From assembly GCF_003052265.1 (NCBI RefSeq), contig NZ_QANS01000001.1, positions 62,001-126,000 on the forward strand: 64,000 nucleotides of DNA. Direction: 5' to 3'. Origin of the DNA: Stenotrophobium rhamnosiphilum (GTDB lineage: Bacteria; Pseudomonadota; Gammaproteobacteria; Nevskiales; Nevskiaceae). The stretch's first letter is position 1; each line of letters opens with the position of its first letter. Under the pieces are notes generated by a model. It saw only the letters and a list, made by a program, of their open reading frames with translations, did not search any database and had not been told where the DNA came from. Position numbers and translations under genes: made by a program. Below, in pieces: positions 15,951 to 19,269 of this stretch.

Positions 15951-16078
15951 GTGCTGGGGCCCGAAAGCGGCGGCCGCTAGAAATGGGCCGCCAATTTATG
16001 CGAGGGGAGGGTGCGGGTCAAAGCATTTAAAGCAGAAAATTGGCCAAGCAATCGCACTTTGCCCGCCGCCCGGGGATA

Positions 16079-16801
16079 ATGACGGCCAATCCTGACCTTG
16101 TTTCGATCGCCAAAACCATGTCCAAGAGCCCACTCGCTCCCTTGATTGCGCCCAGTATTTTGTCCGCCGACCTCGCTCGTCTTGGCGAAGACGTCGAGCG
16201 CGTATTGGCCGCGGGCGCCGATATCGTTCACTTCGATGTGATGGACAACCATTACGTGCCGAATCTGACGTTTGGACCGGCCGTGGCTGCCGCGTTGCGC
16301 AAATACGGCATCACCGCGCCGCTGGATGTGCATTTGATGGTGGAGCCGGTCGATGCGCTGGCGCAGGAATTCGCCAAGGCTGGCGCGACCTACATTACGT
16401 TCCATCCAGAAGCCACGCGCCACGTTGATCGTAGCCTTCAGGCGATCCGCGATGCGGGCTGCAAGCCGGGCTTGGTCTTCAATCCCGCAACGCCGCTGGA
16501 CATCCTCAACTACGTGCTCGACAAGGTCGACATGATTCTGTTGATGTCGGTGAACCCTGGCTTCGGTGGTCAGAGCTTCTTGCCTTCGGCCTTGAGCAAA
16601 CTGGCTGATGCACGCGCGATCATTGATAGCAGTGGCCGTGATATCCGCCTCGAAATCGACGGCGGCGTGAAGATCGATAACATCGCTGAAATCGCCGCTG
16701 CGGGCGCCGATACTTTCGTCGCCGGTTCGGCCATTTTTAACTCCAAAGATTACGCCGCAACAATCCGCGCTATGCGCGAAGCGATTGCTGGGGCAAAATA
16801 G
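16079..16801 (+). CDS. rpe: Ribulose-phosphate 3-epimerase
   Basis: Interconverts ribulose 5-phosphate and xylulose 5-phosphate in the pentose phosphate pathway. A TIM-barrel protein with [34 protein letters not shown] (metal and catalytic Asp), [19 protein letters not shown] and EIDGGVK. From ATG 16079 it is 240 residues, with GGGGATA just before the start. ATG 16118 would give 227 residues, closer to the usual 225, but lacks a ribosome-binding site. It precedes trpE as in Pseudomonas, although gph is absent here. Confidence 0.93.
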
Positions 16802-16808
16802 GCGCCTG

Positions 16809-16871
16809 ATGACCGCTCTAACTGCCATTGTTCGTTTGCCGCTATCGCCTTCTTGGCGATGGCAACTGTGA
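16809..16871 (+). CDS. Candidate trp leader peptide with two Trp codons
   Basis: A 20-codon frame, MTALTAIVRLPLSPSWRWQL, lies in the rpe-trpE interval. It has an AGG at 16800-16802, 6 bases before the ATG. Its Trp codons are at positions 16 and 18 (16854-16856 and 16860-16862), close to the stop, as in known Trp attenuation leader peptides. The second Trp codon lies in the 3' arm of a strong hairpin (16841-16863), and the first begins at the loop boundary. Confidence 0.65.
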   Translation: MTALTAIVRLPLSPSWRWQL

Positions 16872-16953
16872 TTATTTGTTTAACTATTAAATCAATTCGT
16901 TAAATAATCACACATCGGAATGACTAACGCATAAGAGCGGCAGATTCCGGTGT
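16841..16953 (+). promoter_or_regulatory. Overlapping hairpins before trpE (attenuator-like)
   Basis: Three structures compete. The first is GCTATCGCC with GGCGATGGC (16841-16863). The second is CGATG and TGTGATTATTT (16857-16877) with AAATAATCACA and CATCG (16902-16917). The third is ACACATCGGAAT with ATTCCGGTGT (16910-16921 and 16944-16953). The second excludes the first and third, as in attenuation. The third has no T-run but ends 4 bases before the trpE Shine-Dalgarno (AGG at 16958-16960), so control might act on translation rather than on termination. trpE control by attenuation is known in Pseudomonas putida. Confidence 0.55.
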
Positions 16954-16972
16954 AGCTAGGAAAACGTCTCAA

Positions 16973-18418
16973 ATGTCATCGTCACAATACAACCGCGTCG
17001 CGATTACCCGCGAACTGTCGGGCGACCTCGATACACCCGTCGGCGCCTATCTCAAACTCGGCAACCGCCCCTATTCCTTCCTGCTCGAATCGATGCAAGG
17101 CGGCGAACAGTGGGGCCGTTACTCCTTCATCGGTTTGCCTTGTCGCGAAGTGCTGCGCGTTCATGGCCAGCAGGTCAGCGTCAGTCGCGACGGCAAGATC
17201 GTTGAAGAACTGAATTCCCAAGAGCCCATCGAATTCGTACGCGAATACGCGAAGCGTCTGCGCGTGCGTCCGGAACCTTCACTGCCGCGTTTTGCTGGCG
17301 GTCTTGTCGGCTACTTCGGTTACGACTGTGTGCGTTACTTCGAGCCTAAGCTCGCCAAGACGCAGAAGCAGGATCCACTCGGTACGCCAGACATCCTGCT
17401 GATGGTTGCAGATGAACTCGTCGTGTTCGACAGCCTGCGCGCAACGCTGACGCTGGTCGTGCACGCTGATCCGGCCGATGCAGCAGACCTCAAGCGCGCG
17501 AATGCGCGGCTCGATGAAATCGAAGCGCAGCTTGCTCAGCCAGCAACGCAGACTCGTTCACCACTCCCACGTGATAGTCACGCGCCGGATTTTGTTTCCG
17601 AGTTCACGCAAGAGAAATTCTGCGCAGCGGTTGAACGCATCCAGCAGTACATCGCAGCAGGCGACGTGATGCAGGTTGTGCCGTCGCAGCGTTTGACGGC
17701 ACCGTTCACTGCAGAGCCAGCCGCACTGTATCGCGCGATTCGTCGACTCAATCCTTCGCCGTACCTCTACTGCATGCATCTGGGCGATCACCATGTCGTC
17801 GGTTCATCGCCAGAAATTCTGGTGCGTGTGCAGGATGGTGAGATCACTGTGCGTCCGATTGCAGGTACGCGTAAGCGCGGCGCCACGAAGGAAGAAGATC
17901 TTGCGTTAGAGCAGGAGCTGCTCGCAGATCCGAAAGAAATCGCCGAGCACCTGATGCTGATCGATCTGGGCCGTAACGATGCCGGCCGCGTTTCACGCAC
18001 CGGCACCGTCAAGCTCACCGAGAAGATGGCGATTGAGCGTTACTCGCATGTGATGCACATCGTTTCCAACGTCACCGGAAAATTGAATCCAGAGATTGAT
18101 GCGCTCGATGCACTCGCGGCCGCATTCCCCGCTGGCACCTTGTCTGGCGCACCGAAAATTCGTGCGATGGAAATCATCGACGAGTTGGAGCCGGTCAAGC
18201 GCGGCATCTATGGTGGTGCTGTTGGCTATCTCGGCTGGGACGGCAATATGGACATGGCGATTGCGATTCGCACCGCTGTGATCAAGGACAGCAAAATTTA
18301 TGTGCAAGCCGGCGCAGGCATCGTCGCCGACTCCGTGCCTGATTCCGAGTGGGAAGAAACCATGAACAAGGCGCGCGCGATGATGAAAGCTGCTGCGCAA
18401 GCGGGAACGTCGTCATGA
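16973..18418 (+). CDS. trpE: Anthranilate synthase component I
   Basis: Converts chorismate to anthranilate using ammonia from TrpG; the first tryptophan-specific step. The 481 residues show the N-terminal SFLLESM element of the tryptophan feedback site and the chorismate-binding C-terminal domain: [60 protein letters not shown] and [16 protein letters not shown]. The ATG has AGGAAAA upstream. Its stop overlaps the next start in ATGA, so an alpha/beta hydrolase is translationally linked between trpE and trpG. Confidence 0.97.
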
Positions 18419-19269
18419 GCGAGACTTTGAAAGTCACTGCTGCGGATGGTCACGCTTTTGATCTCACGATCTTCTCTGCATCTGCAAACGCACCGCTGCT
18501 TTTGATCGGCCCTGCGATGGGCACGCCTGCGCGCATCTATACGCCGCTGGCGGAAGCTTTCGCTGCGGCAGGCGTGAATGCTGCGGTGATTGAACTGCGC
18601 GGTATTGGTTCGAGCAGTCTGCGTGCAGGTAAAAGCGTGGATTACGGTTATCGCGATCTGATTGAAAAAGATTGGACTGCTGCCTTGTCTGCATTGCGTT
18701 CGCGTTTCGCTACTTCGCCGATCTATTTGTTCGGCCATAGTCTTGGTGGGCAAGTGTCGGTGATGCACGCGGCAACTCAACCAGCCGATGTTGCTGGCGC
18801 GGTGATTGTCGCCAGCGGCAGCGTGTATTTCCGGAGTTGGAAAGGCGCGAAGGCACTCGGCATTCTCGCGTTCACGCAATTCGCTGGCGTGCTGAGCGGT
18901 GCGCTGGGTTATTTCCCAGGCAAGCGAGTCGGCTTCGGCGGCACTGAAGCAAAAACACTGATGCAAGACTGGGCGCGTTTTGGCCGCACGGGTCGGCTGG
19001 ATCTGGCCGGCGTTGGCGCGGACTATGAAGCGGCTTTAGGCACGTTGCAGAAACCGGTGCTGGGATTGAGCTTTGATCACGACACGCTGGCGCCACATCG
19101 CTCGCAGAAAAATCTGCTCAACAAACTCACGCAAGCACGTGTGACGCATCTTGCCTTAGGCGAGAAAGACAGCGGCGCGCGCTTGAATCATTACAACTGG
19201 ATCAAGCAGAACAAGGACGTGGTTGCGCGAATTGTTCAGTGGATCAAAACAGAAGGAGTCGCGTCATGA
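18415..19269 (+). CDS. Alpha/beta hydrolase inserted in the trp operon
   Basis: A 284-residue serine hydrolase-fold protein. The nucleophile elbow FGHSLGGQ places Ser at residue 109. An oxyanion-side [16 protein letters not shown], a LRGIGSSS turn, an acid candidate in [10 protein letters not shown] and a C-terminal His in [10 protein letters not shown] complete the likely triad. It resembles esterases of the serine aminopeptidase S33 / YheT-like group; the substrate is unknown. It overlaps trpE and trpG by 4 bases each (ATGA at both ends), so it is part of the operon rather than a chance neighbour. Confidence 0.85.

Follow-up and report, generated by a model that had tools for sequence, protein, structure and literature searches.

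A conserved Trp-Arg-Trp leader and a candidate translational attenuator upstream of trpE in gammaproteobacteria

A short leader ORF lies between rpe and trpE

We analysed a 64,000-nucleotide stretch of the Stenotrophobium rhamnosiphilum genome, referred to below as the window. On its forward strand, a short ORF with two Trp codons separates rpe from trpE, and the following features were found:

16040 to 16801, forward strand: rpe, ribulose-phosphate 3-epimerase (NCBIfam TIGR01163, E 7e-94; ORF listed with a TTG start)
16809 to 16871, forward strand: leader ORF of 20 codons, MTALTAIVRLPLSPSWRWQL followed by a stop codon, between rpe and trpE
16854 to 16862, forward strand: TGG-CGA-TGG core (Trp16-Arg17-Trp18), with codons conserved across loci
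16958 to 16961, forward strand: putative trpE Shine-Dalgarno sequence (SD) AGGA (anti-SD duplex -4.2 kcal/mol)
16973 to 18418, forward strand: trpE, anthranilate synthase component I (NCBIfam TIGR00564, 580.8 bits against a cut-off of 517.7)

The leader ORF starts 7 nt past the rpe stop and ends 101 nt before trpE. A peptide of 20 codons with Trp at positions 16 and 18 had been proposed in the initial annotation, and both TGG codons are in place (16854-16856 and 16860-16862), in an ORF whose flanking genes were confirmed by NCBIfam. The leader ORF is real and conserved; its counterpart in a congener (locus L002) reads MTSHTAPLRHPLSPSWRWQL up to the stop codon. The TIGR01163 match starts at residue 35 of the rpe ORF, and the true start of rpe therefore probably lies further inside the ORF than the listed TTG.

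Downstream (3') of trpE lie a hydrolase-like ORF and then trpG, trpD and trpC, the latter three identified by NCBIfam. The hydrolase-like ORF (18349-19269, between trpE and trpG) has a single NCBIfam match, which is sub-threshold. Among named records, the TrpE of the window is nearest to those of Sinimarinibacterium, Solimonas and Nevskia. No Rfam family matched the window at gathering score, and the sole match in 16700-17050 at E<=10 was far under the cut-off and on the opposite strand.

The Trp-Arg-Trp leader recurs across gammaproteobacteria

We collected 210 trpE loci in four sets and searched them for Trp-Arg-Trp (WRW) near the stop of a short ORF upstream of trpE. The family set (Nevskiaceae) contained 53 loci from the 54 genomes with a TrpE match, out of the 58 that were searched. 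The order set consisted of 17 genomes from other families of the window's order, and 80 loci were taken from named contigs. The class set included 60 representatives, one per family, chosen among the matches listed (370 genomes searched, 286 matching); it was guided by the best TrpE matches and does not represent a random sample.

WRW leaders were found in 114 of the 210 loci: 40 of 53 in the family, 6 of 17 in the order, 56 of 80 among the named contigs and 12 of 60 in the class. The sets overlap, and among the 193 loci that are distinct around the trpE start the leader was present in 98. One order locus, L148, is additional to the order count: its core is present and the locus runs off the contig end. 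The proposal that the leader responds to Trp is supported by the conserved Trp codons. The initial annotation had named no described version of this design. It is not unique to the window: the leader core recurs in many lineages, including Pseudomonas, whose trpE leaders contain ARWRWR(A/V/T).

Some loci in these sets deviate from the general layout. In the family members L006, L014, L015 and L016 one or both core Trp codons are lost; what remains lies between inverted repeats of the GGGAATCGGGAAT or GGGAGACG type, which extend to the trpE start. Such REP-like repeats were considered as a general pairing element and rejected, since they are present in few family members only. The leader is absent from L022, L127, L129, L131 and L132, where the apparent rpe coding sequence extends to the trpE start. 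In Nevskiaceae outside the window's genus and Solimonas (for example L010, L017 and L020), trpE often has no recognisable SD and follows a C-rich, G-poor gap.

The codon between the Trp codons is nearly always CGA

A search pattern with the middle codon left free (TGG-NNN-TGG) matched 117 loci, of which 70 remained after near-identical leaders were removed. The middle residue is Arg in 67 of these 70 non-redundant matches, and the others are two stop-codon artefacts and one Pro. This sole Trp-Pro-Trp leader, MQRRLFQVLFTCAWPWQ, lies upstream of trpE in L166. The 67 Arg codons comprise 63 CGA, three CGT and one CGC; Pseudomonas loci have CGT or CGC at this place. In the trpE genes of those loci, CGA accounts for 3.6% of 1850 Arg codons, and for one of the 30 Arg codons directly before TGG. 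Among leader Arg codons not preceding TGG, 25 of 175 are CGA. Solimonas-type loci read CGA-TGG-CGC-TGG, and 56 of the 70 leaders end in TGA. In the window's own genome, TGGCGATGG with TGA within 12 nt occurs 59 times, compared to six times for the reversed pattern. Since the bare nonamer with TGA is common in the genome, the evidence for the leader consists of its reading frame and its place before trpE.

Decoding of CGA through an inosine-adenosine wobble pair is slow in bacteria, and this slowness is perhaps the reason for the choice of codon. Excerpts of PMC3711424 and PMC10454642 describe CGA as being decoded by a tRNA whose wobble base is inosine.

The core could instead act through the nascent peptide, with Trp-Arg-Trp, alone or together with free Trp, stalling the ribosome, so that the residues would matter as amino acids. 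The almost invariant Arg, retained even where its codon is CGT or CGC, is consistent with such an arrest. The strong CGA bias, on the other hand, points to decoding and not to the side chain, and the peptide sequence preceding the core varies widely from lineage to lineage. We consider peptide arrest very unlikely.

Three predicted hairpins coexist and lack a terminator

The region 16800-16990 is predicted to fold more stably than all 200 of 200 dinucleotide shuffles (z -3.6). Three hairpins are predicted in it:

16841 to 16863 (16841-49:16855-63), forward strand: hairpin P1, GCTATCGCC:GGCGATGGC, covering the Trp codons; mean pair probability 1.00
16867 to 16912 (16867-78:16901-12), forward strand: hairpin P2, A+T-rich, with a 5' arm that spans the leader stop codon
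16912 to 16953 (16912-21:16944-53), forward strand: hairpin P3, ACATCGGAAT:ATTCCGGTGT, with no T-run after it

The initial annotation had described three hairpins, all of which are predicted by folding. P2 and P3 recur with partly or wholly changed sequence in L002, the single congener compared: P2 is at the equivalent place with its inner pairs changed, and P3 is at the equivalent place with a different sequence. A hairpin at the place equivalent to P2 is also predicted in the Solimonas-type loci L007, L008 and L011. According to the earlier scheme, P2 would exclude both P1 and P3, with the third hairpin as the effector. This scheme fails because P1, P2 and P3 are predicted together: a single minimum-energy structure contains all three, with an overlap of one nucleotide between P2 and P3 and none between P1 and P2. 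When ribosomes are modelled in the window as blocked positions, the 5' arm of P2 is lost with a ribosome at the stop, and P1 with a ribosome at the first Trp codon.

The last hairpin had also been noted to lack a T-run, in agreement with a terminator scan that found no terminator-like site in 16500-17100. Across the WRW loci, a scan that detects the E. coli terminator found such sites in 12 of 67, compared to 6.0 in shuffles. Because of this excess, termination may be used in certain lineages. This bears on transcriptional attenuation of the E. coli trp type, where stalling in the leader would select between an antiterminator and an intrinsic terminator. Both the conserved Trp codons near the leader stop and the excess of terminator-like sites would fit this type of control. 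It is contradicted by the coexistence of P1, P2 and P3, by the scan result in the window, and by the 55 of 67 loci without any site, and we consider it unlikely. Of the features of the E. coli trp type, the window has clustered control codons and lacks a U-run terminator, exclusive hairpins and an Rfam family, the last being a usual but not a defining mark of transcription attenuators.

Alternatively, the stalled ribosome could mask a C-rich Rho loading site downstream of the leader. Many Nevskiaceae loci have a suitable composition between the leader stop and trpE (C 0.35-0.52, G 0.17-0.30). The gap in the window, however, is not a C-rich, G-poor site (C 0.18, G 0.18), Solimonas-type loci are balanced in C and G, and Rho leaves unexplained the swap coupling described below. 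Attenuation by Rho is quite unlikely, and its action could combine with a translational switch through polarity.

The leader tends to be complementary to the trpE start

We calculated duplex energies of 30-nt segments relative to dinucleotide-shuffled partners in 72 non-redundant loci. The strongest block joined leader positions of about -60 to -10 from the first Trp codon with trpE positions of about -40 to +10 from the ATG (t to -6.8), and isolated off-peak cells reached t -4.0. When the map was split, the 34 Nevskiaceae loci peaked at t -4.7, with off-peak cells to -4.1, and the other 38 loci at t -6.8. The duplex z was below -2 in 26 of the 72 loci. At 20-nt resolution (67 loci), the peak fell on leader -40 to -21 and trpE -20 to -1 (t -5.0), and segments starting 0 and +10 from the first Trp codon reached at most t -2.3.

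An earlier control map of 41 loci without WRW, which had no clear peak, was set aside. It relied on plain shuffles and on anchoring at the ATG; treated in this way, the WRW set also showed no clear peak at the ribosome-binding site (RBS) and had its strongest cell (t -6.1) in the trpE coding sequence. As that map was not like-for-like, we made controls from trpE loci without WRW at pseudo-anchors and from WRW loci with permuted anchors.

The minimum t was -6.9 in the true WRW set versus -5.1, -4.1 and -3.8 in three pseudo-anchor draws without WRW. The 67 WRW loci had a block mean of -1.80 kcal/mol, compared to -0.80 for the 87 loci lacking WRW and -0.78 when anchors were permuted; over six draws each, p was 1e-6 to 5e-5 against the controls and 2e-7 to 1e-3 in the paired comparison with permutation. 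Loci under -2 kcal/mol made up 45% of the WRW set, compared to 20% without WRW and 21% with permuted anchors. Complementarity thus has a general background, which the WRW loci approximately double. The number of arm pairs expected from whole-molecule folding was 12.8 for 66 WRW loci; controls had 6.6, WRW loci with their anchors permuted had 8.4, and E. coli had 1.1. Overall pairing of the trpE start was not higher in WRW loci (unpaired 0.401 vs 0.383 in controls).

In the 87 trpE loci without WRW, the RBS is complementary to sequence about 100 nt upstream. This complementarity may reflect a different type of leader, or may be common to start sites in general.

Arm swaps between relatives indicate co-variation

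Next to the energy maps, we compared the pairing of each leader with its own trpE start and with that of a relative, in divergent pairs within groups. The mean swap coupling was -2.9 kcal/mol, and 82% of pairs were negative (136 pairs, 11 groups). Marinobacter supplied 67 of the 136 pairs; the mean of the group means was -3.4. Coupling was negative in 10 of the 11 groups, the exception being Microbulbifer (+0.40), and half of the four Solimonas pairs were not negative. No probability is attached to this result because related species are not independent. Four control region pairs gave +0.41, -0.08, +0.96 and +0.94.

Groups without WRW gave couplings of -1.19, -0.40 and -1.16 at three pseudo-anchors, with 56-66% negative (59 pairs). 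Since trpE loci without WRW show both leader-side complementarity and this mild coupling, part of the pairing signal is general. For Methylococcaceae-like loci without WRW, two of the three pseudo-anchors yielded couplings between -3 and -4 kcal/mol.

The Marinobacter helix joins CTGAATCTGACTGC with GCAG(A)TCAGATTTCAGG, the SD included. By eye, C-G is replaced by U-A in L056 and L085, and in L067 the block is replaced on both sides. In divergent Marinobacter loci the 3' arms shift against the SD and are misplaced by MAFFT; co-variation was gauged by swaps instead. Swaps across all species, in which none of 5000 permutations came up to the observed mean for either group, were set aside: they are open to base-composition bias, and shuffles and within-group swaps were therefore used.

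The initial annotation had suggested a possible action on translation. The sequence comparisons support an action on translation and not on transcription, with no terminator in the window and with leader/trpE-start complementarity and co-variation above controls. Translational gating through pairing of the leader with the trpE start appears to be the best-supported mechanism for the class.

Blocking by a queued ribosome opens the trpE start in the folding model

In the window, two pairs of arms are predicted to connect the leader with the trpE start:

16807 to 16813, forward strand: arm A1, leader start codon, predicted to pair with 16975-16981 (TGATGAC:GTCATCG, mean P 0.70)
16975 to 16981, forward strand: arm A1', trpE start codon and first codons, predicted partner of A1
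16833 to 16837, forward strand: arm A2, in the leader, predicted to pair with 16962-16966 (CGTTT:AAACG, mean P 0.84)
16962 to 16966, forward strand: arm A2', between the trpE SD and ATG, predicted partner of A2

The A1 pairing is kept in L002 as CGATGAC:GTCATCG (mean P 0.65). The duplex between leader and trpE start in the window has z -2.1, and the swap coupling between the two congeners is -3.15.

We modelled ribosomes as blocked positions in the folding of 67 loci and computed the unpaired fraction around the trpE start. Blocking the queue position (-45 to -16) raised this fraction from 0.40 to 0.51 (t 6.8), and blocking both stall and queue raised it to 0.53 (t 7.8). A single stalled ribosome was rejected as a sufficient opener, as its effect was weak on average (0.40 to 0.44, t 3.3). 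A ribosome at the stop gave 0.41 (t 1.3) and an equal upstream block 0.41 (t 1.0). With a median of 45 nt, which is also the value in the window, the interval between the likely leader start and the first Trp codon has room for one stalled and one queued ribosome. In the window, blocking stall and queue leaves -20 to +3 at 0.55 and opens the SD from 0.30 to 0.45, and in L002 it changes little. Support for translational gating in the window itself is moderate.

Ribosomes might also enter trpE by translational coupling, coming either off the leader or off an overlapping +2 frame with an ATG inside TGGCGATGG. That frame ends at the trpE ATGA in seven Nevskiaceae rows (L004, L010, L017, L025, L031, L037, L130; a raw count) and no more than 11 nt before the ATG in a few further loci, as coupling would predict. 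In many others it ends far upstream, 69 nt before trpE in the window, and overall its end ranges from 135 nt before the trpE start to beyond the start. The +2 frame was set aside as a coupling device because its end is not fixed relative to trpE, and coupling is highly improbable.

A model for Trp-responsive control of trpE translation

We are inclined to read the leader as a ribosome-sensing, Trp-responsive attenuator that would act most likely on the initiation of trpE translation, a reading that the present comparisons make somewhat probable. When charged tRNA-Trp is plentiful, ribosomes would run through the short leader; the part of it that precedes the Trp codons would then pair with the trpE ribosome-binding site, and trpE would be poorly translated. 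When charged tRNA-Trp is scarce, a ribosome would stall at UGG-CGA-UGG and a second would queue behind it. The two together would mask the leader arm, and the trpE start would stay open. The genus of the window would have P2 and P3 in addition to this pairing. We infer the direction of the switch, the stalling, the queuing and the reason for CGA.

A more far-reaching version, which we put forward tentatively and hold to be doubtful as a whole, is that this is a recurrent form of trp control in gammaproteobacteria with a two-ribosome queue as the switch. UGG-CGA-UGG would be a purpose-built stall site, at which CGA in the P site, through its strained inosine-adenosine pair, would render the second UGG hypersensitive to charged tRNA-Trp. 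The queued ribosome would mask the leader arm that closes the trpE start, and the arms could drift as long as they co-vary, with the nonamer fixed.

If the attenuator model holds, a leader peptide would control how a biosynthetic gene is translated in many lineages of gammaproteobacteria (12 of the 60 families sampled beyond the window's order), with no need for terminator hairpins, and a ribosome queue, not a single stalled ribosome, would set the switch. The near-fixed CGA between the Trp codons would offer a sharp and cheap test of synonymous wobble decoding as a regulatory device. With no Rfam match in the window, such leaders would be easily missed where no terminator lies downstream.

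Comparison with known leader systems

Attenuation of trpE in Pseudomonas is already known: that of trpE and trpGDC in Pseudomonas putida is the subject of Olekhnovich and Gussin (2001), as titled in the reference list of PMC8297930. The likeness to the leaders described here lies in the shared gene trpE, in the ARWRWR(A/V/T) of Pseudomonas trpE leaders and in the similar WRWRA leader before trpG in L109. The E. coli trpL leader is likewise short, and an Arg codon follows its clustered Trp codons. It differs in its U-run terminator, for which the window has no equivalent, and in its 1.1 expected leader/trpE-start pairs versus a mean of 12.8 in WRW loci.

The nearest design that we found in the literature, as far as excerpts of the source go, is the actinobacterial LEU element upstream of leuA, which has control codons in a leader ORF and a base stem that includes the SD of the structural gene (PMC1262725). 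There, the run of Leu codons itself pairs with the SD, whereas here the pairing peak lies upstream of the Trp codons. In erm-type translational attenuation, as summarised in part of PMC10219788, stalling in the leader exposes the SD of the main gene; the signal there is an antibiotic, whereas for the trpE leader charged tRNA-Trp would be the signal and a queued ribosome the mask. Mycobacterial polycysteine uORFs, according to a passage of PMC9031893, control downstream translation through amino-acid-dependent elongation of the leader, and differ from the trpE leader in amino acid, in being leaderless and in phylum. No description of the CGA signature or of leader/trpE-start pairing was found in titles and abstract starts of the open-licence literature, a scope outside which the 2001 P. 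putida paper falls. The term WRW had zero occurrences in the literature on trpE leader attenuation, among the matches listed.

An ORF scan, which is not a census as its filter drops the window's own leader, revealed a second WRWRA leader resembling the trpE leader in two Pseudomonas loci, L096 (near 6264) and L109 (near 6167). The leader arm of this second WRW leader showed no pairing with the trpG start (z +0.94), which counts against the model. In L109, the second leader lies 181 nt before the trpG start.
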